Below are positions 15,038 to 58,998 of a DNA stretch of 64,000 bases, piece after piece. The stretch is from Cristatella mucedo. Taxonomy: Eukaryota > Bryozoa > Phylactolaemata > Cristatellidae. How positions within the stretch are numbered: the first letter of the stretch is position 1; the number at the start of each line of letters is the position of its first letter. The stretch covers positions 1 to 64,000 of the forward strand of contig WPIO01000206.1 of NCBI GenBank assembly GCA_009760855.2, in the 5' to 3' direction. Made by a program: the position numbers and the translations under genes. The notes under the pieces are model-generated. The model saw only the letters and a list, made by a program, of their open reading frames with translations, did no database searches and had not been told where the DNA came from.

Positions 15038-15202
15038 GAGCAATTATAAAAATAAATATAACATATTTCATTTGTATAGCGCCCCAATAGAACTAAATCT
15101 GTATTCAGGTGCTTCACAAATCCCTCAGGGCTCGAGCCAACGACCTCAGCCAGACCCTAGTTGGGGCGAGCACCTTAACCGCTGGACCAACCCAGCTCGG
15201 CG
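15038..15202 (-). mobile_element. tRNA-derived SINE
   Basis: Read on the minus strand it starts CGCCGAGCTGGGTTGGTCCA, followed by GCGGTTAAGGTGC (box A region), then AGGTCGTTGGCTCGAGCCC (box B region). It ends in a tail of the GAAGCACCTGAATACAGAT...GGGGCGCTATACAAAT type. The internal RNA polymerase III promoter layout identifies a tRNA-related head. The tail resembles the LINE family A 3' end. Confidence 0.85.
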
Positions 15203-19042: not shown

Positions 19043-19135
19043 CAGTGATAATAATAATAATAATACACTTGATAAAGCGCCCTGCGAGAACTCAATCTCT
19101 TTCTAGGTGCTTTACATTCGCTGATGCTGTGGCTC
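19043..19135 (-). mobile_element. LINE family A tail (solo 3' end)
   Basis: Only the conserved tail is present, read in reverse: ATT-repeat end at 19048-19062, then ACTTGATAAAGCGCCCTGCG, AGAACTCAATCTC and TAGGTGCTTTACATT. This is a very short 5'-truncated insertion. Confidence 0.8.
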
Positions 19136-20589: not shown

Positions 20590-20880
20590 TAGTCGATTGG
20601 ATGAAGGACGTTTAGTGGTGCTAAGAGGTGGCGAGACGTGGTGCAAACTAGCCAGGGTAGTTAATTATACCAAGGCATCACTTTAGCTCAGCTAATGTTG
20701 GTCGGATCAGGAAGGGTTAAGGATTGCTTTTACTTTGATGTCTAACGGTCGAATGCCGATGGCATCAATAACATACCCTAAAAACTTCAATTTGGGCTGG
20801 CGGAAAATAAACTTGTCTCTTAAACAATTTTCCCAGCTTCGACATTCCGGAAATGAAGAGACGAAATCAATTATCATCTT
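20590..20880 (-). mobile_element. Gypsy-type LTR retrotransposon reverse-transcriptase fragment
   Basis: On the minus strand the segment reads KFIFRQPKLKFLGYVIDAIG followed by IRPLDIKVKAIL. This is the classic post-YxDD block of Ty3/Gypsy reverse transcriptase (KCxF...V.FLGH.VS..GI.P...K..AI). Downstream, across stops, there is a weak remnant of the NYxxxF region before 20640. No LTRs, protease or integrase were recognised nearby, so this is an isolated decayed scrap. Confidence 0.7.
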
Positions 20881-22272
20881 TAGCCGCCGTGAAGCCTTAC
20901 AACCAAAATTTGCCCTTATGAGCTGTAGTTTCGTATGAACGTATGTATGTAGGGGGCTCCAATACCTGTGTATTATATCATGGCTCGCAGCGTTAAACCG
21001 CACGGCCGTTCTCCCCTCCGTCCTTTTACCCAATGCATCCTTCTCACCCGGCAGTGACTCACCCTTGTAAAAGCATTAACACATTCAACCACAAACCCGT
21101 ATATCCTACGAACAAATAAAACCACTAACCCACTATAAGCCATAACATCGCAGTCCTCATAGGCAAAGGTGGTCGAATTTCAATTCAGCATGAGCTTCCA
21201 TGGCCTACCAAGGCGTACTTATCTATAGGCCCTTGACCTCTGACGTCAGCTTCGCAGCCGTCACGTCAAGCCAAAAGTGGTTCCGTAATGATGCGGGCTA
21301 TAACACCGGTTCATAAACCTTAAACTTCACTGGAAGGCAATACTAAGCCATTTCGTGAGACATGTTGATATTGAGGGCAAACGTCACCACTAATACCATC
21401 TAATAAAAAAAAGCCGAAGGCCGCTAGCAGCTAAATATACGTTGTTCATCCGCTAGCAACTAGCAGTTGGTCAACGCATGATTGTTAGGAGCCATGTTAC
21501 GTTCACGTTTTAGACCTCCGGCCGAGCGTGGCCTCTCTTGATTTCTCGCTTACTTTTGGCTCCGCCCAGGTAACTTCTCTATCGCAGTGGTCACGAGCTG
21601 TATTAGTTTTAATATACAGGCTATTGGTTGGGCTTATCATTAATATAGTGTTTTTAAAAGAAAACAGGCAGAATATCGAGAGCTGTGTTCTTAGCATAGG
21701 CTTAATCTAATCATCAATAGTCTTTGCACATTGCATGGATCGAGCAAATCCCCGAGCAAGTGAGGGTCACGTGGTCACCACGGAGCTGCCGTAATGATCG
21801 ACTGCAGCCACCGAGGCTTCGTCAGTCTGGATATTTGTTCACTGTTCTATGAAAAAAGTACCTGCAAAAATACTTTAATTTGTCTAAGAATGCTAAACTA
21901 GGCAACAACATTGATAGTATGACGCAATCCTATGAAAATAGGATTTAATACTTATTTTGAAATATGGTAAAGGATAATTCTTCAATTAAAAAAACTGTAT
22001 TTCATATTTCATATTTCATATTGTATTTCATATTCTATCTTTTTCGCGACAGAACTGCTCGCGCACCACGATAACCATCAAAGACAGGTATTATGAGCCT
22101 TGTTGCACGCGCAGCCGATATATAGCAAAAGTACATTCACAGCAAGAGTAAAAATCAAAATTCAGTGTGCATGTACAAAGAGCCTAGTGATATGCTACTC
22201 GCCGTGAACCAAATTCCTTTCGGATTCTTCGTTGCAGGTGAGTCAAGAAAATATTAACTGGCTTAGCGTAGA
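20881..22272. other. No recognisable gene; TTTCATA repeats
   Basis: Nothing was recognised apart from a short tandem of TTTCATA-like units at about 22003-22040. This interval lies immediately downstream of the P450 stop codon at its right end, so the region just below 22273 presumably holds that gene's 3'-UTR. No clear polyadenylation hexamer position could be assigned. Confidence 0.45.
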
Positions 22273-31400: not shown

Positions 31401-34400
31401 AATTGCCGCGAAACGTCAGCTAAATTTTGTCGCAGGTCCACAGTCATAAGGGTTGTTCCTTGAAATCAATTTTGCAATTCAAAGCATGCCGATTCTATCA
31501 CGTAGTATAAACTAAATTCTGTTATAAATGCTGCTTCTAAGATTCGTGAACTATGCATTAACAAAAGAAAAGCGCCCAGGAGCCGCTGCAGTGGCCAAAA
31601 CTGCTCAGCTCAGATGCCGCTCAATCGGAGGTAACTGTGAGCTGAGTACCAAGTCGTTTGGTATTCCTAGCATTGTCTTGAACCGCTCAGCACGTTCCTT
31701 CGCATGCGTCACTGTGAATCTCTCTAACTTAGTGATCATCAGGCCTGTTATAACTCCACCGGCCAGACTTGATGCTTGCCTTTGGACTCCTCAATCAATG
31801 TGCAATAAACCTCTAGTAATAAGCGACCTTATTTCTGAAAATGGTATCGACCAGCTCGCCCTAACTGAAACTTGGTTAAAATCGACAAACTGCCCAACAA
31901 TTAAAGACGCGACTCCAACGGGTATCTTATTCTTTCACACCCCTAGATCTATCAAAACTAGAGGTGGAGTTGCTGTTATCGTGCACTCTGTGTCAACTTT
32001 AAGCCATTTACAGTATCTTCGAAGCAATCTTTTGAATCAATTGTCTTGTTCTCACCCAAAAACAAGCAACCGATAGTGGCAGTAGTCTATTGCCCACCAG
32101 GTACCAAATCCTCCTTTATCTCGGATTTCTCCGATCTCGTTTCGATTCAGTGTGCAAGAAATCTATCCTTCCTCGTTATGGGGGATTTCAACGTTCACTT
32201 TGATAGCTTATCAGACTCCTTCAGCACTGAATTTCGTGCATTGACTGACTCATTGTCTCTTGTGGCTCATGTGCATGGCCCTACTCACATCAAGGGTCAC
32301 ACACTCAACCAGATTTTCTTATACAACTACACTTTGTCATCACCAATTATTTCTAAATCCTGCTTATCTGACCACATGCAGATCGCATTCAATCTACAGT
32401 GTTTGCCCACCTCCTCCTCTAAAATAACCTGTGAATCGCGAAACCTCAAGACCCTTGACATCGATGCTGCCCGTGCAAGAATATCAGCTTCACCTCTGCT
32501 GCTCAGTCCTCCCTCCGATCTGTCAACATTGGTAGATAGCTCCAACACGACACTAGCTGACACGCTCGACGAGTTTGCACCTCCGAATAAGCGCACTGAG
32601 CGCCCCTGCCCAGATGGCCCACGGTAACGACGGACATTTAACTAGCCAGGTCTACTAAGTCCAAGCTTGAAAAAGCATGCAATAGATCAGGACTGACTGT
32701 TCATCGACAGGCATACGGAGAGTACTGTATGTCGTACCAATCGATTCTTGCCAAGGCGAAGTCTAGCTTCTATTGAAATATTGTTGAAACACAGATGCAC
32801 AATCCAGAAATGCTGATGTCAACGACCAACCATCTCCTCATCCGCTCCCAGGTTTGCTCCTTACCTGATAATCCTTGTCTTGATCTAGCCGATCGCTTTT
32901 TCGATTCTTTGTGCCGAAGATTGACAAGATCAGGTAGTCCATCCTGATTGCTCGTCAATGTCTACATTTAAGCAGGTTAGTGGTGATCTCGTCCTAAAGT
33001 TCATATCCCAATCAAAGAAGACAACAAGTCCTTTGGACCCTATTCCCACTGTCCTGCTCCTACACTGCATTGATCGGCTGCTGCCATGCATTGCTGAAAT
33101 CATTAATATGTCATTAGCCTCAGTTCATGTCCCAGCACCTTTCAAAAAAGGTGCAGTCAGGCCGCTTCTCAAGAAAGCGACACCGGACCAAGACAACATG
33201 AGCAACTACCGCCCAGTTTCCCCTTCTACGATTCCGGTCTATGACACCTGAACGGGTCGTGGCAGACCAGCTGAACTCATATATTGAAACCTCAAACCTT
33301 GCTAGTAAGTTCCAGTCTGGCTTTAGAGCTAATCACTCCACAGATGGAGAGTATAAACGGTGAAAAGAACCGGACCTAGCACGAATCCCTAAATAACCCC
33401 ATATTTCAGAGGTACCTCGGATGATCTTTGCCGGTTCACGTCAATACTCTGGAGTCTCCCACTGCGATATGATCTGTACCATTGTAGAGCAATACCAGTG
33501 ATGCCCAAGCGAGATAATAGGCGCTCTAGATGACTTTTGTGATCAATAGTGTCAAAAGCTGCCGAAATATCAAGAAAAAACAAGCAGAGACACTCTACCT
33601 ATGTCTGCATTCCTAAGTAGGTCGCCTGGGCATTACTATTAATGCTCTACAGTGGTTCATTTCATATCTCAGTGGAAGACTCCAGAGTATTGTCGTGAAT
33701 GGACAAAGATCATCCGACGTACCTCTGAAATATGGAGTCCCTCAAGGCTCCGTGCTAGGTCCGGCTCTTTTCACGGTTTAAACTCTCCCCCTTGCTGATG
33801 TGATTCAAAAGCACAATCTAGGCTTTTCTTCTTTTCACTCAGTTGTACCTTTGCTTTGATCCCTCACTGCTTTCGAGCACCTCGAATTCTCTGAACTCAC
33901 TTGCTGCAAACATTGATGACATCTGTACATGGATGGCAGCAAAGTTTCTAAATCTAAACGATGATAAAAGCAACTTACTAGTTAGAGACAAACCCAGTGT
34001 GATTCAGAAATTGGAAAGGCTGACGCTCAAAATTGGCTCTGCCAGCATATCTCCTGTTGAATCAGCTCGAAATCTAGGTGTCATGTTCCAAAGTGACCTC
34101 TCGTTAGTCGACCACATCAGCTCCACAGTTAAATCTACCTACTTTCAGCTACATAAAATTGCTAAAATTCGGGCTTGTTTAGATAAGGATACCACGTCCA
34201 AGTTGGTCCATGCATTTGTGACATCCCGACTTAATTTCGGTAACTCACTACCTACTGACCTATCGACTTGTGCAATCAGGTGATTACAGCCTGTGCAAAA
34301 CTCTGCAGCTAGGCTTGTCTTTCGTGAACGTCGCAGTTGCCACATCACACCACTTCTCGCTGACCTGCACTGGCTACAAGTCAAGCAAAGGATAGACCTT

Positions 34401-37400
34401 AAATCGTTCATCGCTCACTTTTAAGTCACTTCGTTCTTTGGCTCCAGCCTATCTCTCAGATCTACTCCCCCACCAGGCCAAGCATCGTACCACCCGCTTT
34501 TCGGAATCCAACCGTTTACCAATACCTCGTACAAACCTCAAATCTTTTGGAGACTGTGCATTCAGTCCGTACGCTCTCAAAGCCTGGAACTCCCTCCCAA
34601 CTTGCGTCAGAACTTCCCCTGACTTGACCACAGTTAAAAAGAACTTCAAAACACACCTATACAGGACAGCATTTAGTGGGTCACCGTGATTCGTCCTTGA
34701 TGTGCTTATGCGTGCTGACACTGTACATGCTGCCACTAGCCACATTTGCATGCTGACCCTGTGCATGTCACCCCTAATCATGTTATTCATGTTGTTTATC
34801 AAGCATGATGTTACTCACTATTCGATCGTGTTTTCCTTTGCAGCCAATGTAAAGCGCCTAGGAAGAGATTGCGTTCACTGAGGGCGCTTTATCAAGTGCA
34901 TTATTATTAAGAAACTAATTTGGCTGTTGCTGGATAATGAAAATTAGACATGTAGTTAGAAATTTTCTGCGTCTTGCGAAAAAACGATGGCCAACTAAGA
35001 ATCTCGCTCCTTAGAAAATTGAAAGGACAGCCCTGTCATCGGAATCGATCAGAAACAAAATATTTATATACTTATAAATAATTTGCATAGAACCCTGGGG
35101 ATAAAATCTATATCTTAGTGCTTTACATGCGTCAAAGGGCTTGATTCCACAACCTTGGTCATTGAATGCGTTCACCCTGACCTCGGTGCTTATAGGTGAG
35201 AACACTGACCCCTGGGCAAAACCAGGGCGACAGAACCACTGCAACTCCAAGCAAACCTGCTCTTGAAGCTTCCAAACGAATGCTATATGCAATATACCGT
35301 TATTATTGGGGAATACGAGGCTCGAGGAAGCCCGCGACTTATTTGCCATGGCCATCACCTGGCTGAAACGGAAACAGAGAGCTACCAGTAATACATAAAA
35401 AATGCCAAAGCTTTCTGTGTCTCTCATACCCACGGTTATTTAAAATGTGATGGAACTGATAGCATCGCTTGCTCTGTCAACTTAATCTGAATGGGTTCAG
35501 CACTATTCCTTTGAATCTCATATGCCCAGTCATTCAACCCACTATATTTCATTGTTTGCTGTACTGTATCACCACTGGAACGAAGACTGGACTTACTTGA
35601 GATTCTTCTAAATCATTCTGAGTTTGAGTTTTATAAAATCGTCCCATCATCATGCTGGGCCATTGTAACATTCATTTCGAAAATCCTCCTTACCATATTG
35701 CATCGAGCTTGGCTTATTTGTTGATTCATTGGACTCGGAGCTATTTGAAATTGCAGCCCTTGCCGTACCACACCCAGCAAACTAAGTCTGTTTTGTTAAT
35801 TCAATGGAATAGCTGCTGAATATCGCCATTACCTCTCTGCACGTGCTTGCTAGGCACTGAGTGGCTTTTGGACTGTATGGGTTTGCCAAACTAGTTTAGT
35901 TATCGCTATTTTTTCTCCTGATTCACCGTCTGCAATATTTTCTGAACTGCTGCTCATGGGACACCCTAAGCGTGTGGCTGGATTAAAAGGCTTTGATCTT
36001 CTATTAGGTGGTGCTGTTGTGTGACCATTACCACGTACTCGAAATTTAGGTGTCGTTTTCGACAGCTGCCTCAACTTTAAAAGCTTTATTCAGAAGACTG
36101 CTTCTACAGCTAGCCATCACGTCCGATACCTATCCGAGATTTAGAGTTGTCTCCCACTCTTGCGTGTAAAAAATTTAACTAGCTCCGTAGTTCTGTCTCG
36201 GCTTGACTATTGTAATTCCCTTTTGGCTGGGCTGCCAGAGAAAGCTACTAGGCCACTGCAGCAGACTATGGATATGGCTGAAAGACTAGTCTTCAAGTCC
36301 TAGTGGTTTGAGAACGTGTCTCCTTAGCTAAAAGAGCTAGGATGGATGCCGGTTGAGCAACGGATACAGAGCAAAGTTCTTACGCTGACCCACAAGGCTC
36401 GCCACGGTTTGGCTTCTTCGTACCTAGCTAAACTGCTGCATCAGTTTCAGCCTGTTCGCGCCCTCAGATCCTGTGTGGAAATTAAATTATCTGGTCCATT
36501 TCTCCACTTAAAGACCGTTGGCGACAGAAGCTTTAGCTCTGCAGGTCCTAGACTGTGGAACTCGCTCCACAACTCTTACGCAACGACAACTACTCTCCTA
36601 CTGCCGACTATGGGCTCATCCTATTCAGCGGTCCTGAGCTGCTACTTCCATGCTACTCACTACCTCAACAGCTCTCCTGACTCAGCTATGCTTCCAACTT
36701 TCTCTTTGTTGCGTGAGAAGAAGTCTTTTGGCTACCGAATGCGTACCGAAAGCCGCTTAGGCTGTGAGTGCGCTATACAAAACTCTCTTGAGTTACATCC
36801 ACATGATCTTTATGACTTTGTGGAGTTACAGACAGAGATACATTACATTACGTTAAACAGATCTCCGGTTGCACGACCTGCTCTTCTGATTTTATTCGTG
36901 TGGCTTTCCCTCTAACGAATTACAGCTCCCTTGGAGACGGTGCATTCAGCTAAAAATGATCCTAAAGCCACAAAGCCCTTGAACTCGTAACCGCCTGTCA
37001 CTAAGTAATTATCTAAGAAACCGTAAGAATCGTCCTATAAAAAGGCTTACTTTAATTAAATTGTGTTTAAATTAAGTTAATCCTCATTCGAATGCTGAAC
37101 CTTTAGAGCAAATGACTCCCAAGAAACGACAGCTATTCAGCATTTAAAAAACAAGTGATTTTTATCATTTAAAAAGAGCTAAAATGTTGATATGGATATT
37201 TTTACCACGAATCAAAAAGGTTCTCTGCCTTTGAGACCACAAAAACTTTAAAATGCGCCTACTTATGACAGCATTTAGTGGGTCCCCGAGATTCTTCCTG
37301 TATGTGCTTATGCGTGCTGATGCTGATGCATGCTGCTACTAACCACACTTGCATGATGACCCTGTGCATGTCCCCCATAACTATGTTATTTATGCCGTTT

Positions 37401-40400
37401 ATCAAGTATAATACACTCACCACTCAATCGTGTTTTCTTTGCAGCACATGTAAAGTGCCTAGAACGAGATTGAGTTATCTGACGACCCTTTATCAAGTGT
37501 ATTATTATTATTATTAAAGTGTTTGACTTTCTATATTTACAAACTTATGCTTTTATTTTTTCTCTATAAATTATGAAATTCATTTTTTTCAGAAAATAAG
37601 TTTCACATAGCTAAGGTATTACCCCGAGGCTTTGCTACCGTTTAGATATGCTCTAGAGTATTTGGAAGCTGTAGTTCTTTTGCGAAAAGCTGCTCACTTA
37701 AACCTCTTTGCCCGGTCAAAGCAGTCCATGAGCTGCTAAAATGGTATTCTTCTATCATTGAATAAGAGGATATAAATTAGGAAGCAAAGTTTGCTTTAAG
37801 ACCCAGAAAACGCGTATTAAAGGATTCTTCTCAATAATACCCATCTGTCTTTTCAAGCAAAGTTCGTTGCTAAACTGGGCCTGTATTATATTTCTACTCC
37901 AACTTTCTACGCGATTTCTGTATTACGGCTATTGTAAAATATCCAGTTAAAATTATTGGCCATGTAAAACTGTAAATCTCTTTAATTAAGTTATCGTTGA
38001 AAAAACGTTTTCAGGCAATCCTAGAAGGGTAGGTTTACTATATTATTCGTTGCGGGCGCTTGCATTTGTCTTGATAAAAAAAATGCAGTAACTCCAAGAA
38101 TTTCTTCAAGCTATCAGCTGCATTGCTGCATGCATTAGAGAAACTAAAACTGCTTCAATCAGTGCTTCGATGTAGAGGTTCTTCTAGCATAGATCATGAT
38201 ACTGTGAAGCCTATAAACTCACTTAATTTTTTAATATCTTCTAATAATTATACCTACACGAAATAACGGCACAGTAAAATAAAAATAAAAATGTCGTAGC
38301 GTAGCAAGTAATGTTTGTGAAAAAGTGGATATTTCAATGGCATTACTCTCTTTAATCCTGTTTGGTCACTGAAAATCTCCTTCATTTGTCCACGAGCTAT
38401 GCAAATATGGTAATTTAATGCCATGCAGTGAAATCAGCCAGAGTTTCAAAATTCCTATTGAATGAATCAGTAATGGTTGCGGTTTACTAATAATGATAAT
38501 AATAAAACAATTTGCTATAGCGCCCTCAGGGAATTTAATTTCCTTGCCGCATTCTTAAATTTTCGGCAAAGGTAGCATGAGGGTAGGTGTTTGGTAGACT
38601 GCTCAATGACAAACAAACCTAACATGGTTAGAGGTTTCATGCACAGGGCGAGCAATGCAAATAAGGCTAAGTCGCAGCGCTCACAGTGTCGGCACGCACG
38701 AGTGCTCAAAGAAAGAATCACGTGGACTCACTGAATGCAGTGATAAATAGATGCTTTTTAGTTTCTTGTTAAATGTGGTGAGGTCAAGAGACGTCACGAC
38801 GCTTGTCGCTAATAAGTTCTAGGCTCTGGGAGCATAGAACGAAAGGCACTGTCCCATATAGAGGGAGACTCGTAAGGGTGCAAGTAAGGGTGCACGATTG
38901 GATTGCGATAAGTGGATGGTACGATGCTTAATTGTGGCAGCTAAGTAGGTCTGATTTGTAGGCCAGAGAAAAAGAATGAAGGGACCTAACAGTGAGTGAC
39001 TGAATTTTGAAGTTATATGTGCTGCTCAACAGCGAGCCAGTGCAGGGTCGCAGAGAAGTGGTGTGACATTCACGACAGACAAGCCTAGCTGCAGAGTTGG
39101 TGTACAAACTTTAAGCGCCTAATTGAACGTTCGGTAGACAGCAAGCAGCGATTTACAGGAGTTGAAGTGGATGTCAGAAATGCGTGGACCAATTCAGATG
39201 GCAATAACCCTAAGCAAGCAAGCCAAAATCTTAGCAATGGTATGTAGCTGAAAGTAGGCAGATTTGACTGTGGAGCTGAAGCTATGATCTCTAATAAAAA
39301 GTTCACTTTGAAACAGGGTAGTTAGATGTCGTGCAGATTCAACACACGATATGCTGGCAGAGCCGATTTGGAGCGTTAGATTTTCTAATTTCTGAATCGT
39401 ACCCAATTTTCCCAAACCTGGTAAGTTGTATTAGTTATTGTTTAGTTCGAGATAGTTTTGCGCCGCCTAACGTGAGCTGATTTCATGAATACATGTAGCA
39501 CGAGAATTGAGAGGAAATTTGACAGTGGTGCTAGAGGGCTAACAACTGTTATTGTTTTAAAAACGATTCAAAATTTCCGACCTTCGGTCACCTGAACTTC
39601 TGCTTCGATGGATTTCACGTGCATAGAGTGACTGAATTACTCTGGATAATGTGTCATGTAAAATTAAGGCAGGTATACCTCAAAACTGGTTGCTTTTCAA
39701 CGATCGTGAGTTTCACCTGACGGAAGCCTAATTGGCTCCAGAAATATCCCGATTGAACCATTCTGCCTGTAGTAGAGTAATTGTAATGCTTGTGCCAAAA
39801 TTGGAAGTGAATCATTCGTACTTATGGGTTGTGTGAAGTGTGGACTCATGAACATCGGTAGGACCGACTGGTCTAGGTTATCTTACATTCGCACAATATA
39901 GCGGCTTAGTTTACTTGCCTGAAAGTGTGCAGTTGTGTACAATTGTATTTGCCTGTATTGAGGCACATCAATAAAGGCCCACCTGTTCAGTTAGGGCTCT
40001 CGTAAAAGAAATTACCGGGGAAAGGTGCATTAGAAAACCGCAGGCCTTCAATTATTAGACTTGCTTGAGTTGCATTCAAACCCGATTTGACTTACCCGAA
40101 TGGCATAAACACAATCGAAAAGAAACGATGATAAATCGATTGTTTTAGCTAATATTAGATAACAATAAAATATTAAAAATAATAATAAAATATTAGACCG
40201 AACATTCCGGGACCAAACTGCATAGCTCGCAGCTGCTGCAGCCGCCGCATAACCGCCGCCGCCGGCCGCTCGCTTCATTGGGAAACCATCCTTCCAATCC
40301 ATCTATTCCTCTAATTTATAGTAAGGTTTTGATTTTATTTTAATAGAGCATGAACTCATTTTAACCATATATCTGTGTGTGTGTGTGTAGGTGTGTGTGT

Positions 40401-40479: not shown

Positions 40480-43400
40480 GTTCCTACCTGGGGGAATGTC
40501 CGGCTGGGGAAATGTCGCAGGGTCCACCGAGGGAAAAGGTCGGGGGGGGAAACACCGGGGGGGGGGGGGATGTCCTAAAACCAAGCGTCAAGCACACCCG
40601 TCTATTGGTTCTGACACAGACGGCTTTTGAGGCCCAGTGCCTATCCGACCCGGCTGATACTTTGCCAGTAGCTATAGCATCCCTTAGAGAATAAATCTCG
40701 TTCCATGCACTTTTTAAGACACTGTTAAGAAAGCCAGACCACGCTATCACGTGGTTGACGTTTCGTAATGTCATCAAGAGGAAAAAATCTTTGCGACATG
40801 GCACACGGTCAAAATGTAGATAGTTTTAGTGGCAACAGTCAGAGCGTCAGTAAACATATGCACAAAGAGGAGCAAATCAGAAGGACCCACTAATTTCTCT
40901 ATTGTAAAATTTAACAGATGTGTTTTAAGCTTCTTTTTAAATGTCGTCAGGTCAGAAAATGGTAGGAGTAGACCTCCAGGCCTTTTGGAGCATACAAAAT
41001 AACTGGTACTGTCTGTGTAATTATTTGAGGGGTTCATAATACAAGGTTAAAGTTAAACGGTTTGATTTAGACCAGCAGGTTGTTACTATGCTTTGCCTGA
41101 TTACCACTTGGCATACTTAAATATAATATATTGCAGTCAGAAAAGCGACAATGGTCAAATGTTTCGCCTTCTACGGCTCAATTCCCGAGCACTCCAATCT
41201 TACTCAGACATTTAGTCATTTCAATATTTGAGTATACACGAATAATTATGCAAGTAACTATGAATATGTAATGTAATGCGAAGCAGTTAAGGATTACCTA
41301 GTAATTCGGAAATCTCAAGCTGAACATTTGCTTGTAACTTCAGGGTGCAGTATCATGAATAGCCACGCCCACATTAGAGTAGCGGCTGTAGTATCGGTGC
41401 CGGCTAGTGAAGAGCTGCAGTACTGAAGCCAGGCAGTTAGTCCTCTACAAGAGAAAATGTGGCACCACTGAACGACTGCAACTCCGAACGGCATTTAAAA
41501 TTTTGCAATTAAAGTAAGTAGGGATTACACTCTTGTTACCTGTTCAATTAAAAGTTTCTCAAGTAAATTAAAATACTTCTCACCGAACTACACTGGCTCC
41601 CAGTGAAGAAACGCATTGGACTTCAGGATTTAGTCACTCACTTTAGGTCTCTTCATTATTTGGCCCCCACCCTACCTATCAGATCAAATCCCACCTTTCG
41701 GATGATCGGTTTACATACCTCGTATAAATCTCAAATCCTTCGGAGACCGTGCCTTTAATTCGTATCCTCCCAAAGCCTGGGAACTCACTGCTGCCCTGAG
41801 TCGCGATATCTCCTGACTCGTCCCTACATTTAAAAAGAAACCAAAAACGCATCTATTTATGGCAGCATTATTGGGGACCTGCGATTTGTTCTTTATGTGT
41901 TTATGCTTGCTAACACTGTGCATGCCCTACTGACCCTACTTGCATGCTGATCCTGCACATGTCAACCCCCCACTAAAAATATAATAATAGTGCACTTGAT
42001 AAAGCCACCCTCAGAGAATACAATCTCTGTCTAGTCGCTTTAAGTTGCTGCAAAGGGAAACGCTATTGAATGCTGAGTAATATCATGCTTGATAAACAAC
42101 ATGAATAACATGGTTAGGGGTGACATTCACATGGTCAGCATGCAAAGTTGGTTAGTGGCAGCAATGCACAGTGTCAGCCGCATAAGCAAAATCAAGAACG
42201 AATCCATCACAGAGACCCACTAAATGCTGTCCTAAATAGGTGTTTTTTTTTTTTTTTTTAAATGTGGTCATGTCAGGGGATGTTCTGACGCAAGTCGGGA
42301 GGGAGTTCCAGGCTTTGGGACTATACGAACTAAATGCACGATCTCCAAAGGATTTGAGGTTTGTACGAGAGGTATTGGTAAAACTGTGGGTTTCCAAAAG
42401 TGAATCGTACGATGCTTGGCCTGGTGGGTGTAGATCTGAGAGATAGGCTGAAGCCAAACAACGAAGTGACCTAAAAGTGAGCGACAAAACATTGAAGTCA
42501 ATCCGTTGCTTGACTGGTAGCCAGTGCAGGTCGGCGAGAAGTGGTGTGATGTGGCAACTGCGATGCTCACTACAGACAAGCCTAGCTGTAAAGTTTTGGA
42601 ACCAGCTGTAATCGCCTGATCGCACATGGCGGTAGGCCAGCAAACACTGAGTTACAGAAGTCAAGACGGCATGTCACAAATGTATGGACGAACTCAGCCA
42701 TGGTATCCTTATCTGAAAAACCATGTTGTTCATGTTGCTTATTCAGCATGTTACCACTAGTCGCTCGATTCGTGCTTCCTTTGCAGGAAAATATAAAAAA
42801 AGCTCCTAGAAAGATATTGAGTTCTCTTTGGTGCCACTATATCAATTGCATTATTAGTATTGTTATTATTACTTGCATATTATAATGCAAAGCACGTAAA
42901 TCGTCGCATCAAAACATATTAGCTTGTTTCTTACAGCTGCTATACGAATTTAGAGGACTCTGCACTGCTCATAGATTTGTTAGGAATATTTCCATTAATG
43001 CGACTGAAAAACTATCTACAGCCTTTGCAGCATAGCAGAATGTTGTCTTTGACCATCCTGCTACGGAATTTGGGCTAATTAGACTTAAAACTTCCCCGAA
43101 GCCAGGAGCCAATAGGGCGCCGAAGAAATCGTAGACAGAATCTTGCTTGAGGCATCACGAATAATGGCGGAACATAACACCCAGCAACATGTGGTTCGCT
43201 TCAAGATAATTTTTAATAAACGATAGACCTGATGAAGTATGACTGAAAAACCCCAAACAGTTACATGATGATTCCTTTCCCCAAGCTAGCGAGCCACTTT
43301 AATACCGCTTTGAGCCCCTTCATTCTAGCTCTTCGATGTAAGTTGATACAAAACAAATAAGATACCCTAATAAAGTCGCAAATTACGTTAAGCCCATAGC

Positions 43401-46400
43401 TCTGCTCATGTTGTCTGCACTTGATTAAGATGAATTCGACTAAATTGTGATACTATTGACAGTAATATTGTAAATGGAAAACTAGATTTTCTGGATATGC
43501 TCAGTACAACAATGACTTTCGCGAGCAAATCATGGACATTGTATCGGGCCGAAAATCAAAGTAGTCGTGTAATGTAACGTATCTCCACCTTAAAATGCAC
43601 AAAGCAGCAATGACGAAGTGGGTATTACTCATGAGAGCTCCTATAGCACACTCAAAGCCTAAGCTGATTTCTTTAGGCGTCGGGTAGGAAAAAAAACACC
43701 ATCTCACGCAGAAAAGAGAACGAGATAGAATAGCTGAGTCAAATTGGCGGTTAAGTTAGTGAGTAGCATGAAAGTAGCAGCTCAATATAGCTGAAAAAGA
43801 TGCGTTTACATAAGGATACCACATCGAAGTTGGTCCACGCATTCGTGATATCCCGTCTCGACTTCTGCAACTCACTGCTTACTGACCTACCAGCATGTGC
43901 GATCAGGCGTTTGCAGCTGGTGAAAAACTCCGCAGCTAGGCTTCTCTGTTGTGAGCGTCGCAGTTGCCACATTACTCCACTTCTCGCCGACCTGCACTGG
44001 CTACCAGTCAAGCAACGGATCGACTTCAAGGTTTTGTCGCTCACTTTTAGGTCACTTCATTCTTTGGCTCCAGCCTATCTCTCAGACATACTCCCCCATC
44101 AGGCCAAGCACCGTATCACCCACTTTTTCGGAATCCAACAGTCTACAAATACCCCGTACAAGCCTCAAATCCTTTGGAGACCGTGCATTTAGCTCGTAAG
44201 CTCCCAAAGCCCGGAACTTCCTCCCATACTGCTTCAGGACATCCCCTGACATGACCACATTTCAAAAGAACTTGAAAAACACACCTATTTTTGGACAGAA
44301 TTTAGTGGGTCCCTGTGATTCGTTCTTGATGTGCTTATGCGTGCTGACACCGTGCATGCTGCCACTAACCGCATTTGCATGCTGACCCTGTGCATGTCAC
44401 CCCTAACCATGTTATTCATTTTGTTTGGTTATCAAGCATGATTTTACTAACCGTTTCAATTGCATTTCCCTTTGCAGCAAATGCGAAGCGCCTAGAGAGA
44501 GATTAAGTCTCTAAAAGCGCTTTATCAAATTCCTTATTATTATTTTTTTATTATTATTGCCATAGTCGATAGCAAGAGAGTAGAAGTAATTATGCGAGAT
44601 TTGTCGATGTCAACTCCACAGCCTACGACCTGCATAGCAAACGCTTTTGTCGACGAGGTCTTGAAGCGGAGGGATGGAACAGCAACTGCATTGTCCCTAC
44701 AAGACCTGAGGGCACAAAAAAGCTGAAGCTGGTGCAATGGTTCATCTAGGTATGAATAATCAACCCGTTCTTAATGTTGTCGGTCAATATACGAACTTCA
44801 TTCTTGTCACCGTCGATCAATCGGAAGACATCAAAGCTTCTTCACCAAAGAAGAAACATAGCTGCAACTCCGTGATTTGCCATGTCGTCTTGCAGCCATA
44901 TTCATTACCAGCTGCGATGGCCTTGTTGCTTTTTCTGTAGCCAAGCCAAAAATGGAAGTGCAATAATCTAGCTGAGACAGAATCGGGGCACTAGTTGCAT
45001 TTTTGGCAAGCCACCATGTAGACGGTTACTAATCTTAGATAATGATAACGATTATTTGTGAGGGCGAACTTTTAAGGCACTCCTTGGTAAACAAAATTAG
45101 CAATGTACATAGTTATCAAAGACGACGTCTAAATTCCTAGCACATGGTGACGGCGGCACGACAGCTTGGCCTGTTTTAAAAGCAAAGTCTTCTAGTTCAG
45201 CCAGACCCCTGGGGTGTCCTATGAACAGCCCTCACCGTGCACAACTTAGTTGCGATAAAATCTGAGCTTGAAAGTAAAAGTGAAATTTCACATGTCAATT
45301 TGACCATTCAATGTGGTCAAAGAGCAATTACAAAATGACTAGCTTAGTAGAGCTTGGGTATTTAAGCTGTGGAACCTGGTTCAGAGTCGTGATTTCGCTT
45401 TAGAGTAGTTACTGGCTCTAACATACCGTCAAAAGAAGATTGCTGTTCACTTCCTTCACTCTTTTGCATCTCGATGAGGTAGGAGTCAATAAAATCTTTT
45501 GGCTGTTCTGGGTCCAGGTTCTGAGCATGACAATTGATCGCTGAAGCGAAGAATTCTCTGACCTCAACAATGCTCTTGCAGTATGAGTGATACCCGAAGA
45601 CATCCACCGGTAACCATTTTAGGAAAGGTAGAGCGAAAACGGCTGCCATCCTCCTCAACAATCGAAATTGGTTTAGAAACTTATTCAATATACCACTGAA
45701 TATTGTATCGTCATATTCAAAGCGAGATCCCAGCACAAGATTGCAGATTATATTTGAGATGGCGCTGTGCATTAGGCTGTCGACTATTATCGGCGAGCCG
45801 CTCACACGTTCAATCTCTTTAATGAAAGCGTCGACTTCTTCCATAATCTTATTTTCCATGCTCATTTTGCCCATTCCTTGTTCCCGCAAAAACGAAAGAG
45901 CAAATTTACGTTGTTCTTTCCAGTCAGGTGAGTTTATAATTCCTTTACCTAAAAAACAGGATTACATTAGGCGATATCGGTTCACAGAATATTATTTAAA
46001 GCCTCGGGAGAATTCATCTGCTACATCCGGAGCCACTGCTGCGCTTAGCAACAACATGGGCATCAGCACAAAGCGAATACTTGGATTCCTCTGCAGGGAA
46101 TGCCAAACCAATCCTGGAGTTCAGTGGCAGAATATGGATGGTGTGCCTGTGTTCTTCAGGACCATCTATCGTTAGTCACTTTTAAAACCAGCCAAGCCTA
46201 TCAAATCAGAAATAATCGATTGCAGCATCAGCGATCCCTGGAATCTATCTCGGTAGGTACTTTATTTGTGCCACTTGACTAATTTAGCGAACTTATTAGC
46301 AAAGCCTAACTTAAGACACTATATGACAGGGTAGAGAAGTAAGGGTTCCTGCATTGCAACACTTAAATTTGTGATTGGGCGATTAGGGTTATCGGGTTCC

Positions 46401-48535
46401 TCTCAGATACCTACTTAACCGTGCCTTTATTTTGTATGCTTTCAAAGCCAGGAAGTCACTTCAGACTGGCATTACATCCCCTGCCTTTACCACATCAAAA
46501 AAGAAGCTAAGAACGCATCTAATAAACGTAGCATTTATACGGGTTCCTTTGATTCGTCTTTTGCGTGCTCACGCGTGCTGACTTTGTGCATGCTGTAAAT
46601 TATCATCTTTTCATGCTGACCTTGTGCAGATCACCTCTAACCATACTGTGCTTCTTGTCATTGAGCGTGCCAGTACTAACCATTCGACTGCGCTTATTTT
46701 CATGTATGTAAAGTGCCTAGATAAGATTGAGTTTTCTGAGGGGAATTTTTACGTGTATTATTTTTCTTATTATATATATATATGCATACTGAAATTTTGA
46801 GCCTCTATAATATAAGATATATATTAGGTTCCACTGAACAATTACCTGCCTGCCAGAGCACGGAGCTCAGTTCAATGACAGGAAACAGCCTTGCCTCAAC
46901 TACTACAGCCAGTTTGAAGCGGCATTAGCATGTTCGTCCAAACAGGGATACTCGCAAGATAAACTTAAAAGCACCTCTAGAGCAACCAACCACGACCAGG
47001 ATAGACAGTGGCCCAAGACCAGCGCCAGTGTGGTTATATCTTACGATAAAAGCAGGCCAATCGGTATGTGGAGGGAATCTGGGCATGCCATTCTAAATCA
47101 ATAAGTAATTGGATGAGCATACTGTCTCCACATAAGGGACATAAGTAAAACGGTATCAAGTGGGAGCAACAAATTTTGACTGTGAGATTTTACAACAAAA
47201 GCTGACTCTGTGGGAGTGGCCACGCCGCAATGTGGTTCAGCCCCAACCGTATTCACACCACTCGCCAACCCGTCACCTGTCAACAAGTGCCTGTGTACCG
47301 GCTGGTTAGACATTGCACTCGGACCATAGGGGCTCACCCCACGACATTTAATTGCGACAGGTCAGCACTGAGCTGGGCACTCGTACGTCACTGCACGTTA
47401 CTGCCACATTGCATACCACTGCCAATCACTGATGACCTTGGACCTCTGAACTGAGCACCTCAGATGACGAACCGACCGCACTCGGCTTGATGATAGCCTC
47501 GATGACGCTTGACGCTGACGATGACCTCGTGCATATCACCTCTAACCATACTGTGGTTCTTTTCATTGAGCATGCCGCTACCATTCGAACGTGATTCCTT
47601 TGCAGCAAATGTAAAGTGCCTAGAAAGAGATTCAGTTCTCCGAGGGCACTACATTAAATGCATTATTATTTAGATTACCAAGATGCTCAGGTGCATCTGA
47701 GTATCGGACATTATTTTAGTAATATGGGCATAATCATGCATACGTAAGCACGCTAAATAAGTAGGAATAAAAATAGCTAAGTGGAGCTAAAGCGACTGTT
47801 TATGTAAACAGATACCCTTTAGCTGAAATTTTCTAAATGATACCAGGTCATTGAGCTTTTTGGACGAATTCTAGTCTCAAAAAATTAATCATGGATTTAG
47901 TCCACTTTCCGATCCTTCAGATTGATAACATCTGATAGCATTTTAATTCTCAAGCTCAAAAACCTTATTGCATATATTTATTTTCAAAACAAAAGTTGTT
48001 TTCAGTTACAAAATTGGAGCATATCGTCAACACCTTTCCGGCAATGGTCCGGGGGTCATGGTTTGATAGCAACGCATGGGCGGGCATTGCCCTCTCTGAT
48101 AACTTATCATCTTTTTCGGCAATTTGCGAACCAAATGAGAGCTACAATAACAGCAAAGCACCAGGCTTACCTTCTAATCCTATAAGGATTGAACCGAATC
48201 GTCTTGGCCGTGAACTGCAGCTACCAGCTTGTACGACGAACGCTTCGTGTATGACATCGTAATCCGTCATGAATACTTCAGAAAACCTTCCCAAGGAGGA
48301 TACATATATGCTTCCAAATGTGTTTCTCCATTTTTCTTTATAATGCAAGAAGTCTTCGAAATGAAACAAGGAAACGAGCGTTGTCGAGATCCGGGATGGT
48401 CCAGGTGGGGTGCTTAAGCTTTTGTCGTCTACTCAGCACGAAACTGCTGAAGATCCCAATAGTAAGAATTGCTACAGCCACAGCACAAAGTGCCTCGTCT
48501 CGAAAAAAATCCAGGAGTCGATCATCGATACCCAT
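22273..48535 (-). CDS. Cytochrome P450, CYP2-type, four exons found, one apparently missing
   Basis: This encodes a microsomal heme-thiolate monooxygenase, which uses O2 and NADPH-P450 reductase electrons on small lipophilic substrates; the substrate cannot be told from sequence. Exons on the minus strand are 48171-48535, 45427-45948, 23742-24035 and 22273-22457. Found joins are phase 1 (G|GT or G|GA) with GT...AG borders. Visible landmarks are an N-terminal membrane anchor, a PPGP hinge, WKEQR (C helix), EIFR (K-helix ExxR), FIPARF (PERF-like) and the heme loop FGIGRRACIG with its Cys ligand. The exon that should carry the I-helix (A/G)GxxT motif, between 24036 and 45426, was not found by eye. 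Exon 1 has a one-base frameshift. The gene may be functional with sequence errors, or a recent pseudogene. Large introns are filled with LINE, Tigger and SINE insertions. Confidence 0.88.
22458..23214. other. P450 last intron, upstream part; unassigned open frame
   Basis: This is intron sequence between the K-helix exon and the heme exon. A minus-strand open frame of about 129 codons spans 22847-23236, overlapping the LINE tail that follows. It has no recognised domain and is not likely to be coding. Confidence 0.5.
23215..23332 (+). mobile_element. LINE family A tail (solo 3' end)
   Basis: A sharply preserved tail within the last P450 intron: TTTGCAGGAAATGTAAAGCG, then CCTAGAAAGAGATTGAGTTC, then TCTGAGGGCGC and ATT repeats ending at about 23330. 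It is one of the cleanest copies and useful as a tail reference. Confidence 0.9.
23742..24035 (-). CDS. P450 exon with K helix and PERF region
   Basis: The acceptor TTTTCAG is followed by GTTCACG. The exon reads from [19 protein letters not shown] through EIFR (K helix), then [17 protein letters not shown] and FIPARF, ending FIPFGI with a phase-1 donor CG|GTAAGC. It is 294 bases with no internal stop. The heme loop is split by the following intron. Confidence 0.94.
24256..24440 (+). mobile_element. Possible second tRNA-like SINE family
   Basis: Box A-like TGGCTCACAAGGAAGG and box B-like GTGGGTTCGATTCCTC are spaced as in a tRNA head, followed by a body ending GGCTGTTTAATCAGCT. A weaker relative is seen at 61205-61335. 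The body and tail differ from the main SINE family. It could also be a lone tRNA relic. Confidence 0.45.
24786..25155 (+). mobile_element. Tigger/pogo-type DNA transposon remnant, N-terminal part
   Basis: In broken frames the plus strand shows [20 protein letters not shown], then [12 protein letters not shown], which are the first helix-turn-helix of pogo/CENP-B transposases. [19 protein letters not shown] then ADFQTLGLF follow, the second CENP-B type DNA-binding domain. Stops interrupt it. The remainder of the transposase resumes at 25905 after a LINE A insertion. Confidence 0.75.
25156..25880 (-). mobile_element. LINE family A copy inserted in the Tigger remnant
   Basis: The tail reads in reverse from 25156 (AATAATAATTAGCAAACCCT, then GAGAACTC-like and CTAGGCGCTTTACATTT), followed by C-terminal ORF2 blocks up to about 25870. 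It separates the DNA-binding and catalytic parts of the transposase, so it arrived later than the DNA transposon. Confidence 0.85.
25905..26520 (+). mobile_element. Tigger/pogo-type DNA transposon remnant, catalytic part
   Basis: Across several frames one sees [20 protein letters not shown] (leading to the usual NADETG, here NKNG, so the first catalytic Asp is lost), [40 protein letters not shown] (second Asp block), and [20 protein letters not shown], which matches the LPPNTT..LQP.D block. The order is exactly that of the DDE domain of Tigger transposases. It is non-functional, with multiple stops and frameshifts. Confidence 0.78.
27850..28514 (-). mobile_element. LINE family A copy nested inside family A (inverted)
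   Basis: The ATT-repeat end is at 27853-27875, then tail and C-terminal ORF2 read on the minus strand ([37 protein letters not shown]). The long 137-codon minus frame at 28088-28501 is one of the better preserved family A C-termini. The host copy resumes directly at about 28515, so the insertion point is sharp. No convincing target-site duplication is visible. Confidence 0.88.
28822..29227 (-). mobile_element. LINE family B copy nested inside family A
   Basis: The terminal GTAATGTAATGTATCTCC (reverse of the ATTAC-type tail) is followed on the minus strand by [20 protein letters not shown] and [20 protein letters not shown]. It interrupts the host copy within the reverse transcriptase, between the GRLQS-like and GSVLGP blocks. 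A possible TATG duplication flanks it, which is weak. Confidence 0.85.
30421..31690. other. No recognisable gene; possible 5' part of next LINE
   Basis: No domain was recognised. The right part, from about 31528, is open in the frame of the following LINE but lacks endonuclease motifs. It might hold the element's 5' region or unrelated DNA. This lies within the large P450 intron. Confidence 0.4.
31700..34912 (+). mobile_element. LINE family A, near-complete ORF2 and tail
   Basis: Endonuclease motifs appear in order: [17 protein letters not shown] (about 31830-31881), GGVAVIVHS (31963), [11 protein letters not shown] (32075), [10 protein letters not shown] (32178), KSCLSDHMQ (32360). Then the linker, with DPIPTVLLL (33036), VRPLLKKA and NYRPVS (33208). 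The reverse transcriptase is interrupted by an inverted segment (33343-33620), then reads [15 protein letters not shown] (33741). The YADD catalytic loop is deleted (about 33825-33840). Thumb and C-terminal blocks run to 34689, ending [13 protein letters not shown], and the tail with conserved stem-loop ends at about 34912 in ATT repeats. ORF1 was not identified. The copy is dead but is the most complete family reference in the window. Confidence 0.92.
33343..33620 (-). repeat. Inverted reverse-transcriptase segment inside LINE family A
   Basis: The minus strand here reads [20 protein letters not shown], then [20 protein letters not shown], then EVPLKYGV and [13 protein letters not shown]. 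This is the same reverse transcriptase region that the plus strand partly carries at 33622-33790 ([31 protein letters not shown]). The flanks on both sides are plus-oriented family A, so an internal piece is flipped and also partly duplicated, giving inverted arms of roughly 170 bases. Confidence 0.85.
35060..35200 (-). mobile_element. Diverged tRNA-derived SINE
   Basis: On the minus strand: GACCAAGGTTGTGGAATCAA then GCCCTTTGACGCATGTAAAG, CACTAAGATATAGATTTTAT and CCCCAGGG, then an AT-rich end with TTATTTATAAG. This matches box B and tail of the SINEs at 56166 and 58858, but with many changes. It accounts for most of an open frame spanning 35011-35433. Confidence 0.6.
35201..35544. other. No recognisable feature
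   Basis: A gap between the SINE and LINE family B within the P450 intron. No motif was recognised. Confidence 0.4.
35545..36868 (+). mobile_element. LINE family B, internally deleted copy
   Basis: Endonuclease remnants ([20 protein letters not shown], about 35655-35725) are followed, without most of the reverse transcriptase, by [17 protein letters not shown] (36033), [20 protein letters not shown] (36190-36250) and a 189-codon open C-terminus at 36346-36915 ([34 protein letters not shown]). The tail has ACTTTGTGGAGTTACAGACA, then GAGATACATTACATTACGTT. Family B tails lack the family A stem-loop. Confidence 0.82.
36920..37516 (+). mobile_element. LINE family A 3' end with an internal insertion
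   Basis: Begins at the block usually read [16 protein letters not shown] (36925-36990), then about 230 bases of unrelated sequence (37000-37235), then resumes at AAAACTTTAAAATGCGCCTA and runs to the tail at 37440-37516 (TGTAAAGTGCCTAGAACGAG, ending in ATT repeats). Confidence 0.8.
37517..38486. other. No recognisable gene (P450 intron)
   Basis: AT-rich sequence with no domain or repeat family recognised on either strand. Confidence 0.45.
38487..39420 (-). mobile_element. LINE family A, 3' half
   Basis: The reversed tail begins at 38487 (AATAATGATAATAATAAAAC, then AGCGCCCTCAGGG). ORF2 thumb and C-terminus follow on the minus strand up to [20 protein letters not shown] near 39400. It is diverged and frame-broken, with a truncated 5' end near 39420. 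Confidence 0.83.
39421..40372. other. No recognisable gene; GCC-rich patch
   Basis: No gene recognised. A GCC/GCAGC-rich patch at 40228-40272 would encode an alanine run on the minus strand, but no surrounding gene structure supports coding. Confidence 0.45.
40373..40483 (+). repeat. (TG)n microsatellite, followed by G-runs
   Basis: About 110 bases of almost pure TG dinucleotides with two small interruptions. G homopolymers at 40542-40549 and 40557-40569 lie close downstream. Cys-Val open frames across it are artefacts. It lies in the large P450 intron. Confidence 0.98.
40484..40799. other. No recognisable gene (P450 intron)
   Basis: G-rich near the left edge, otherwise unremarkable; no domain recognised on either strand. 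Confidence 0.4.
40800..41065 (-). mobile_element. LINE family A fragment
   Basis: Contains TAAGCTTCTTTTTAAATGTC, GTCAGGTCAG and surrounding 3'-UTR and C-terminal blocks of family A on the minus strand ([17 protein letters not shown]). No tail repeat remains. Confidence 0.7.
41066..41567. other. No recognisable gene (P450 intron)
   Basis: No supportable feature on either strand. Confidence 0.4.
41568..42875 (+). mobile_element. LINE family A 3' end split by an inverted family A copy
   Basis: The left part (41568-41970) starts near the HWLPVKKRI block and runs into the 3'-UTR. It stops within the GTCACCCCTAACCATG-type segment, which resumes at 42715 (CCATGTTGTTCATGTTGCTT), and the tail closes at about 42780-42875 with ATT-rich repeats. 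The intervening 744 bases are another copy in reverse. Confidence 0.85.
41971..42714 (-). mobile_element. LINE family A copy nested in family A (inverted)
   Basis: The reversed tail is at 41975-42050. A 170-codon minus frame (42152-42664) follows with [40 protein letters not shown] and [20 protein letters not shown]. It is among the better preserved C-termini. A T-run sits at about 42243-42259. Confidence 0.88.
42876..43564. other. No recognisable gene (P450 intron)
   Basis: No motif or repeat recognised. Confidence 0.4.
43565..45010 (-). mobile_element. LINE family B copy split by a family A insertion
   Basis: The family B tail and C-terminus in reverse (43565-43797: GTAATGTAACGTATCTCC...) stop at GAAAAAGATG. 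Family B resumes at GCCATAGTCGATAGCAAG (44556), continuing through the ALRSCRDN-type block to a diverged RT C-terminus (LDYC...LATEKA-like, about 44890-45000). The break lies exactly where intact family B reads GATGTGCCATAGTCGG. Confidence 0.75.
43798..44553 (+). mobile_element. LINE family A inserted into family B
   Basis: A 5'-truncated family [60 protein letters not shown], then the 3'-UTR and tail (GCGCCTAGAGAGAGATTAAG ... ATT repeats to 44553). The first 130 codons are open. No clear target-site duplication at its borders. Confidence 0.9.
45011..45426. other. No recognisable gene (P450 intron)
   Basis: Sequence beside the second P450 exon. It was searched for an I-helix exon on the minus strand without success. 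Confidence 0.4.
45427..45948 (-). CDS. P450 second exon (C-helix to pre-I-helix region)
   Basis: The acceptor TTTTTTAG is followed by GTAAAGG. The exon reads [20 protein letters not shown] (C helix WxxxR, heme-propionate contact), [31 protein letters not shown], and ends EQQSSFDG with donor CG|GTATGT. It is 522 bases, phase 1 in and out. In many CYP2 genes this span is divided among two or three exons, so intron loss or an ancestral large exon is implied. Confidence 0.92.
45949..46407. other. P450 first intron, left part; nothing recognised
   Basis: No recognisable element before the LINE A fragment that follows. Confidence 0.4.
46408..46785 (+). mobile_element. LINE family A 3' end
   Basis: Begins in the PKAWNS block (AAAGCCAGGAAGTCACTTCA), passes the 3'-UTR and ends in a diverged tail (TGTAAAGTGCCTAGATAAGA ... 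) followed by a TA-rich run at 46773-46790 instead of clean ATT repeats. Confidence 0.78.
46786..47510. other. P450 first intron; nothing recognised
   Basis: A slightly GC-richer piece at 47215-47450 has short open frames on both strands without motifs. Confidence 0.4.
47511..47672 (+). mobile_element. LINE family A tail
   Basis: GACCTCGTGCATATCACCTC, then the 3'-UTR, GCAAATGTAAAGTGCCTAGA, AAGAGATTCAGTTCTCCGAG and ATTATT. A short 5'-truncated insertion. Confidence 0.85.
47673..48170. other. P450 first intron, right part; nothing recognised
   Basis: AT-rich, no motif. Confidence 0.4.
48171..48535 (-). CDS. P450 first exon with membrane anchor; one-base frameshift
   Basis: The start ATG at 48533-48535 opens [17 protein letters not shown], then a hydrophobic anchor [17 protein letters not shown] and SRRQKL. 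The frame then shifts by one base near 48410-48422 (C-rich CACCCCACC). In the next frame the hinge reads PPGPSRIS, followed by [39 protein letters not shown] and ILIGLEG, with donor AAG|GTAAGC. Exon length (365) exceeds phase 1 by one base, consistent with one extra base. The usual GLPxxGN after PPGP is degenerate. In-frame sequence continues upstream of the ATG, but the anchor fits the internal Met. Confidence 0.85.
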
Positions 48536-52865: not shown

Positions 52866-53632
52866 TCATAATATTAATAATCATAATTATTATTATTATC
52901 CGTTTATATAACCTTCTATGAGAACTTCATCTCTTTCTACGCACATCATCTGCTGCAAACACAAGTGTGGTCAAGTGATTAGAGGATTCATACTCAATGA
53001 CAACCAGAATAGTATGGTTAAGATGACATACACCAGATTAGCATGGAAAGATGGCTAGTGGCAGTATCCACTGTGTCAGCACAGATTAGCACACAAACGA
53101 CGAATCACATAGACCTACTAAATAATGTGATAACTAGCTGCGTTTAGCGTCCATTTAGATGTCGAGAAGTCAATGAATGTCGTGACGCTACTCGGAAGTA
53201 ATTTTCGGGCTTTGGGAGCTTACAAACACAAAAAAGGCATAGTCTCTAAAGAACGTGTGGTACCTACGAGGTGTTGCTAAACGATTGGATTCAGACAAAC
53301 TAGCGGTAGGATGATCAGCCTGGTTGGGGAGCAGATCTGATTAGTAGAATGGAGCAAAAGAATGAAAAAACTTAAAAGAGACTGACAGAAACTGGAATTC
53401 GATGCGTTAATTTACTAACAGAAAGAGCAGGTCAGGTAGACGTGGCACGGTATGGCAATTGTCGCCGACGACAGACAAGCCTTGCTGCCGAGTTTTGCAC
53501 CGGCTGCGAGCGCCTGGTTGCACAGGCCAGTAGACCAGCAAGCAGTAAGTTACAGAAGTAGAAACAGGATGCCACGAATGCATAGACCAATAATGTTTCA
53601 GATGTGGTATCCAGTTCTAAACTGGCCACCAT
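52866..53632 (-). mobile_element. LINE family A, 3' half
   Basis: The reversed tail is at 52870-52960 (ATTATTATTATTATC then ACTTCATCTCTTTCTACGCA). On the minus strand, ORF2 C-terminus blocks run up to TLLVYAFVASCFYFCNLLLA and GLLACATRR near 53560-53620. It abuts an opposite-orientation copy at about 53632. Confidence 0.8.
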
Positions 53633-55266: not shown

Positions 55267-55395
55267 TGCCGAGCCGGATTGTTTCAGCGGTTAAGCGCTC
55301 GCCCCGACCAAGGTCTGGCTGAGGTCGTGGGCTCGAGTCCTGTGGCATATGTGAAGTGCCTGAATAGAGATTAAGTTCTCGATACACTACGGCCA
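55267..55395 (+). mobile_element. tRNA-derived SINE inserted in LINE family A
   Basis: TGCCGAGCCGGATTGTTTCA, GCGGTTAAGCGCTCGCCCCG (box A region), TGAGGTCGTGGGCTCGAGTC (box B region), then GTGAAGTGCCTGAATAGAGA and TTAAGTTCTCGATACACTAC. Same family as 15038, 56166 and 58858, here in the plus orientation. The tail end is shortened. Confidence 0.88.
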
Positions 55396-56165: not shown

Positions 56166-56319
56166 AAAAATATAAATATATAATTTATTTATATAGCGCC
56201 CCAAGGGAACTTGATTACTATTCAGGCGCTTCTCACATGCCTCGGGGCTCGAGCCCATGACCTCAGCCAGACTTCGGTCGGGGCGAGCACCTTAACCACT
56301 GGACGAAACCAGCTCGGCA
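56166..56319 (-). mobile_element. tRNA-derived SINE inserted in the LTR element
   Basis: On the minus strand: TGCCGAGCTGGTTTCGTCCA, GTGGTTAAGGTGCTCGCCCC, GAGGTCATGGGCTCGAGCCC, then AGCGCCTGAATAGTAATCAA, GTTCCCTTGGGGCGCTATAT and an AT-rich end. It is full length with well-kept box A and box B. A 14-base C-run follows at 56329-56342. Confidence 0.92.
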
Positions 56320-58857: not shown

Positions 58858-58998
58858 TAAAAAAAATAATTCATTAATATAGCACCCCAAGAGAACTTAA
58901 TCTCTATTCAGGCGCTTCACATATGCCTTGGGGCTCGAGCCCACGACCTCAGTCAGACCTTGGTCAGGGCGAGCACCTTAACCGCTAGACCAAACCAG
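58858..58998 (-). mobile_element. tRNA-derived SINE
   Basis: On the minus strand: CTGGTTTGGTCTAGCGGTTA, AGGTGCTCGCCCTGACCAAG, GAGGTCGTGGGCTCGAGCCC, then CATATGTGAAGCGCCTGAAT, AGAGATTAAGTTCTCTTGGG and GTGCTATATTAATGAATTAT. It has the cleanest tail of the family and is best for comparison with LINE A. The extreme 5' bases are changed. Confidence 0.92.

Follow-up and report, generated by a model that had tools for sequence, protein, structure and literature searches.

The window, that is, the whole stretch of 64,000 nucleotides of Cristatella mucedo DNA that was analysed, contains copies of one SINE family and of two LINE families, LINE A and LINE B, whose coordinates are collected in Table 1. 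Two cytochrome P450 pieces, 45365-45961 and 23725-24090, both on the minus strand (Pfam p450, E 8.3e-21 and 1.4e-27), are separated by about 21 kb, within which LINE copies occur. An open frame at 20710-21075 on the minus strand resembles by eye a piece of a Ty3/Gypsy reverse transcriptase; no Pfam match was obtained for it at E ≤ 0.01.

Table 1. Positions of SINE and LINE features in the 64-kb window
Feature	Position	Strand	Basis or remark
SINE copy under study	58858-58998	-	tail core 58871-58923; A/B-box head precedes tail
SINE copy, full length	56174-56312	-	SINE profile
SINE copy, full length	15060-15195	-	SINE profile
SINE copy without 3′ part of tail	55274-55389	+	adjoins LINE A ORF2 piece
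SINE copy, old and diverged	35057-35225	-	SINE profile
LINE A 3′ tail	11704-11813	-	LINE-tail profile
LINE A 3′ tail	13132-13238	+	LINE-tail profile
LINE A 3′ tail, very short copy	19043-19125	-	LINE-tail profile
LINE A 3′ tail quoted in the initial annotation	23230-23332	+	LINE-tail profile
LINE A 3′ tail	25146-25253	-	LINE-tail profile
LINE A 3′ tail, SINE-type loop TTAAG	27850-27960	-	LINE-tail profile
LINE A 3′ tail	30317-30420	+	LINE-tail profile
LINE A 3′ tail	34813-34921	+	LINE-tail profile
LINE A 3′ tail	37415-37522	+	LINE-tail profile
LINE A-type 3′ tail, diverged	38485-38574	-	LINE-tail profile
LINE A 3′ tail	41971-42078	-	LINE-tail profile
LINE A 3′ tail	42765-42872	+	LINE-tail profile
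LINE A 3′ tail, SINE-type loop TTAAG	44446-44550	+	LINE-tail profile
LINE A-type 3′ tail, diverged	46675-46773	+	LINE-tail profile
LINE A 3′ tail	47579-47685	+	LINE-tail profile
LINE A-type 3′ tail, diverged	52873-52982	-	LINE-tail profile
LINE A endonuclease domain piece	31962-32624	+	Pfam Exo_endo_phos_2, E 3.4e-06, 27.4 bits (equal to the cut-off)
LINE A ORF2 C-terminal piece	28091-28504	-	
LINE B	36328-36912	+	3′ part, 36328-36851, used as negative control

The SINE is about 140 bp long. A profile built from three copies finds five in the window: three are full-length, one is truncated in the tail and one is old. This agrees with the initial annotation, which had counted at least five copies at the locus, and the copy that it described at 58858-58998 is indeed found there, on the minus strand. 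Within the window, the only matches to a strict pattern of A and B boxes, the letters of which we take to be those of the canonical boxes, are two of the five SINEs; 100 simulated windows gave no match. Neither ARAGORN nor Rfam recognises a tRNA in the SINE head; at a lowered ARAGORN threshold, the sole match spans the SINE tail and is not confined to the head. The description of the head as tRNA-derived is likely to be right, with the A and B boxes as its basis.

The tails of LINE A were located with a profile built from 13 LINE tails. At E ≤ 0.01 it yields 20 matches in the window, four within SINEs and 16 in LINE tails, so that LINE A is abundant, as had been proposed, with somewhat fewer copies than the figure of about twenty given; the tail for which a position had been quoted is confirmed at 23258-23300 on the plus strand. 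The reverse transcriptase pieces of LINE A are broken, and one of them, joined from two frames, has a weak match to RVT_1 (E 0.028, below the cut-off). Two LINE A pieces compared with the PDB found no match at E ≤ 1. LINE B is a second LINE family, a further copy of which (28824-29221, minus strand) is 90% identical over 401 bases to that in Table 1; it ends in ATTAC-type repeats, and its end differs from that of LINE A and does not match the SINE tail.

The SINE is not restricted to the window. In the genome searched (572,011,866 bases in 688 contigs), the SINE query produced 2479 first-look candidates, and the 40 places that were scored, the query itself being one, are 96-100% identical to it, which argues that the family moved recently. 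Separate flanks are present in 27 of 28 fetched copies; the exception repeats the flanks of another (L002 and L001). In this pair, the window SINE recurs together with its flanks on contig 464, as a duplication or an uncollapsed haplotype. Abundance was gauged from 25 stretches of 10 kb each. As these were placed at round coordinates, on contigs that came from the list of SINE matches, they are not a strictly random sample. The sample contains 18 SINEs with heads (E ≤ 1e-5) and 70 tail matches (E ≤ 0.01), 13 of them within SINEs. As a rough genome total, these counts suggest tens of thousands of SINEs and on the order of 100,000 LINE tails, the latter as seen by a profile that was built from LINE A and would therefore miss very different tails. 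Across window and sample, SINE copies range from 98% down to 78% identity to the young consensus.

The signs of target-site duplications at the SINE are weak. With a minimum length of 7 nt, they accompany 4 of 27 copies, against a control mean of 0.57 and a control maximum of 4; with a minimum of 6 nt, the figure is 8 of 27, against a mean of 3.1 and a maximum of 9. None of 7 nt was found around eight elements of the window. Four SINE copies (L008, L013, L014 and L016) have 3′ ends with repeated short units, for example a doubled AATGA; such units fit slippage during copying from the 3′ end.

A 3′ tail common to the SINE and LINE A

The initial annotation had claimed agreement of the two tails over about 45 bases; the last 50-60 nt of the SINE are indeed shared with the 3′ end of LINE A. 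Consensus sequences built independently from four SINE copies and 13 LINE tails, all from the window, align with a score of 79 with the AT-rich end and of 64 without it. Dinucleotide shuffles (2000 each) reach a maximum of 30 in the first case (mean 17.3, sd 2.9) and of 31 in the second (mean 16.1, sd 2.7). With the AT-rich end excluded, 41 of 50 ungapped positions are identical; the comparison with shuffled controls that had been recommended thus leaves a similarity that persists beyond the AT-rich end. The profile of 13 LINE tails also matches all five SINE tails, with E-values of 2.2e-11 (at 58929), 1.8e-6 (15118), 1.2e-5 (55344), 2.2e-5 (56240) and 0.017 (35138). The similarity is confirmed as real and far beyond chance. 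The idea that it reflects a fortuitous or AT-rich resemblance is rejected by the shuffles with and without the AT-rich end and by LINE B, which as a control scores 22 and 17, i.e., at shuffle level; we regard it as having practically no probability. By the same scores, LINE B was discarded as a partner of the SINE.

Upstream of the tail the resemblance ceases. The SINE head, compared with 400 bases of upstream sequence at each of 16 LINE tails, gives scores of 12-19, which is the level of shuffles, and the two heads are unrelated, again as claimed. Exact searches with two patterns in viral contigs and with one in genome contigs gave no match.

LINE C, a nearer match to the SINE tail

The comparison of tails in window and sample led to a third LINE family. 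Among 73 non-SINE tails, seven resemble the SINE core more closely than the young LINE A core. One of these (L047:2628-2559) and a tied tail (L048:7667-7596) have their 3′ untranslated region in common, and the L047 copy runs into an ORF2 that is about 45% identical to that of LINE A over 143 residues. When the genome was searched with the L047 3′ end, 833 candidates were obtained, among which 39 scored places, not counting the query, are 72-80% identical to it. Twenty copies fetched from these places, together with L047 and L048, form the 22-copy consensus of the family, named LINE C here; it should be noted that this consensus was built from old copies chosen by their likeness to one old copy. 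Translated sequence from upstream of two further LINE C copies resembles the C-terminus of LINE A, with 55% identity over 51 residues in one case and 52% over 91 residues in the other. Judged by these resemblances, LINE C is a LINE related to LINE A, with a related tail; from their ORF2 motifs, we presume that both are L2-like. In the 64-kb window, nothing of LINE C was detected except the tail that the families share.

Aligned with the young SINE tail, the LINE C consensus is identical at 49 of 55 positions and needs no gap, compared with 46 of 57 with a gap for the young consensus of LINE A and 45 of 57 for its middle-aged consensus. The local scores against the SINE tail are 88 for LINE C and 73 for LINE A; LINE C sequences whose letters were shuffled (2000 times) score 33 at most. 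Individual copies behave in the same way: of the 20 fetched, 18 are nearer to the SINE core, one is tied and one is nearer to LINE A. The SINE tail therefore matches another LINE better than it matches LINE A, which the initial annotation had put forward as the mobilisation partner. Such a better match was one of the two outcomes that this annotation had itself named as speaking against its pairing, while its more general idea of a SINE carrying a LINE-type 3′ tail stands.

The explanation that we consider probable is that a head of the Pol III promoter type was joined directly onto the final 50-60 nt of a LINE, that the source of this tail was a LINE C-type element or a close common ancestor, and that the tail of LINE A is a cousin of it. 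RNA polymerase III would transcribe the SINE, the 3′ end of its RNA is predicted to fold into a two-part hairpin and, if the established LINE/SINE model applies, the tail would be recognised by the reverse transcriptase of a LINE, so that the SINE would be copied into new sites. The direction of transfer cannot be read from similarity alone, and the LINEs might conceivably have taken the tail from the SINE. We think this very improbable, as the tail occurs in LINE A, in its old relatives and in LINE C, i.e., more broadly among LINEs than in one SINE family.

Predicted hairpin, ages and possible helpers of the SINE

One and the same two-part hairpin is predicted for the consensus tails of LINE A (-22.4 kcal/mol, z -4.6) and the SINE (-20.3 kcal/mol, z -5.2); it consists of a lower stem, an internal loop of 4 + 2 nt, an upper stem of 5 bp and a terminal loop of 6 nt, UUAAGU in the SINE. 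Six individual tails have z-scores of -1.3 to -5.1, the poorest being 56185-56238 (z -1.3). The masters of the window differ at 8 of 46 positions, two of which fall among 32 stem positions and six among 14 loop positions (P 0.006, post hoc); in dead copies, stem and loop have mutated to a similar extent (72/506 and 26/221 in the LINE, 22/151 and 7/66 in the SINE). When five masters are compared, 96% of cells pair, versus 31-70% in slid controls; a single pair shows changes of both partners (G-C, G-U, A-U), which is also reached by 207 of 500 shuffles. Among 21 tail copies, neither covariation beyond that of shuffles nor a structure by RNAalifold was obtained. Since dead copies are not expected to covary, this null result means absent support and not contradiction, and the common 3′ hairpin of SINE and LINE tails stands as a prediction.

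The details of the predicted fold bear on the version of the relationship given in the initial annotation, in which LINE A serves the SINE as tail donor and as partner. LINE A is the main tail-bearing LINE in window and sample, and its best copies there are 98.0, 97.4 and then 96.0% like their consensus. Moreover, the exact terminal loop of the SINE, TTAAGT, is present in five of the nine youngest copies, a set chosen by pairwise identity; TTAAG is present in seven, one has TTGAGT and in one the loop is absent. Apart from the better match of LINE C, however, LINE A and SINE consensus differ at five of the six internal-loop positions, and an A.A mismatch between the lower and outer stem, common to LINE C and the SINE, is paired in LINE A. 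We therefore hold it unlikely that LINE A filled both roles.

Age points the other way. When the LINE C consensus served as the query, the 40 scored places among 4068 candidates were all 83-89% identical and none reached 90%. As a near-identical copy should rank first, LINE C looks dormant, unless a young branch diverges from the consensus used and was missed. The SINE, with its scored places at 96-100%, would then have outlived the donor of its tail. This raises the tentative possibility of a switch of partner, in which LINE C donated the tail and later became silent, and LINE A is now the carrier of the SINE. The youngest branch of LINE A shows the UUAAGU of the SINE and LINE C, whereas the consensus loops of middle-aged (21 copies) and old (10 copies) LINE A are UUGAGU. 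Several points weigh against such a switch, besides a young LINE C branch that could have escaped the search. The two best LINE A copies are inverted in one 10-kb stretch and could stem from a single duplication event. Outside the young set, too, TTAAG is found in LINE A copies (L034:2323, L036:1924 and L030:2945), including old ones, the latter two among them, so that the loop may have been either gained or kept by the young copies. A replacement of LINE C by LINE A as carrier is, in our opinion, a minority reading, although a possible one. If true, it would be a natural record of partner switching, in which the shared key is the terminal loop and stem and not the internal loop.

Given that its youngest copies mostly carry the SINE terminal loop, LINE A may supply the enzyme to the SINE today; of the two candidate helpers, LINE C is favoured by sequence and LINE A by age.

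Known pairs and minor observations

A review of such elements counts 58 SINEs with the tail of a partner LINE, describes hairpins in tails of the stringent type and mentions the case of the eel (PMC3747384). Like the stringent pairs of that review (PMC3747384), the elements described here have their last tens of bases in common but unrelated heads, and a hairpin, predicted in our case, would precede short repeats in the tail. In contrast to those pairs, the nearest LINE looks dormant here, and it is a relative of that LINE, with a comparable tail, that looks younger. In the zebrafish L2-clade elements ZfL2-1 and ZfL2-2, the 3′ hairpin is reported to be needed for retrotransposition, with its loop giving specificity, and the region between endonuclease and reverse transcriptase to bind it (PMC4176376). 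The tails described here share with these elements a 3′ hairpin, predicted in our case, beside short repeats (PMC4176376). In an arthropod, Plutella xylostella, PxSE5 and PxLINE1 have a common tail, and the partner was sought with a 50-bp 3′ query (PMC8010984). PxSE5 differs in its 5S-derived head, and the term "stem-loop" is absent from the text of that paper (PMC8010984). The Ruka SINE of ixodid ticks, compared by its published description, is likewise of the Pol III type and has a reference interval of 138 bp, near the length found here (PMC3160391).

On these features, the pair is a further case of the stringent LINE/SINE pair, which is a known kind; as tail sharing between LINEs and SINEs is established, the pair itself is not surprising. 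No paper in the literature searched was recognised as naming it, the Ruka sequence and Repbase lying outside the comparison, so that it cannot be called unreported. The new point, if true, would be the possible change of helper. The SINE, LINE C and LINE A coexist in one genome with graded tails and different apparent ages. Three such families let one ask from sequence which parts of the hairpin must match for a SINE to be mobile, and whether SINEs swap their helper once the donor LINE dies.

Several arrangements of the repeats are recorded here as separate observations. In L036, a SINE without its first third (5240-5332, minus strand) directly follows the 3′ end of a LINE B. In L071, a LINE C tail has as its immediate neighbour a second tail (229-274, minus strand), which is oppositely oriented. 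Within a LINE A element of the window, about 440 bases (33346-33788) match their own reverse complement at 73%, as an imperfect palindrome or an inverted duplication. The very short LINE A copy of Table 1 starts near the point where the similarity between SINE and LINE begins, and is the kind of piece from which SINE tails could arise.
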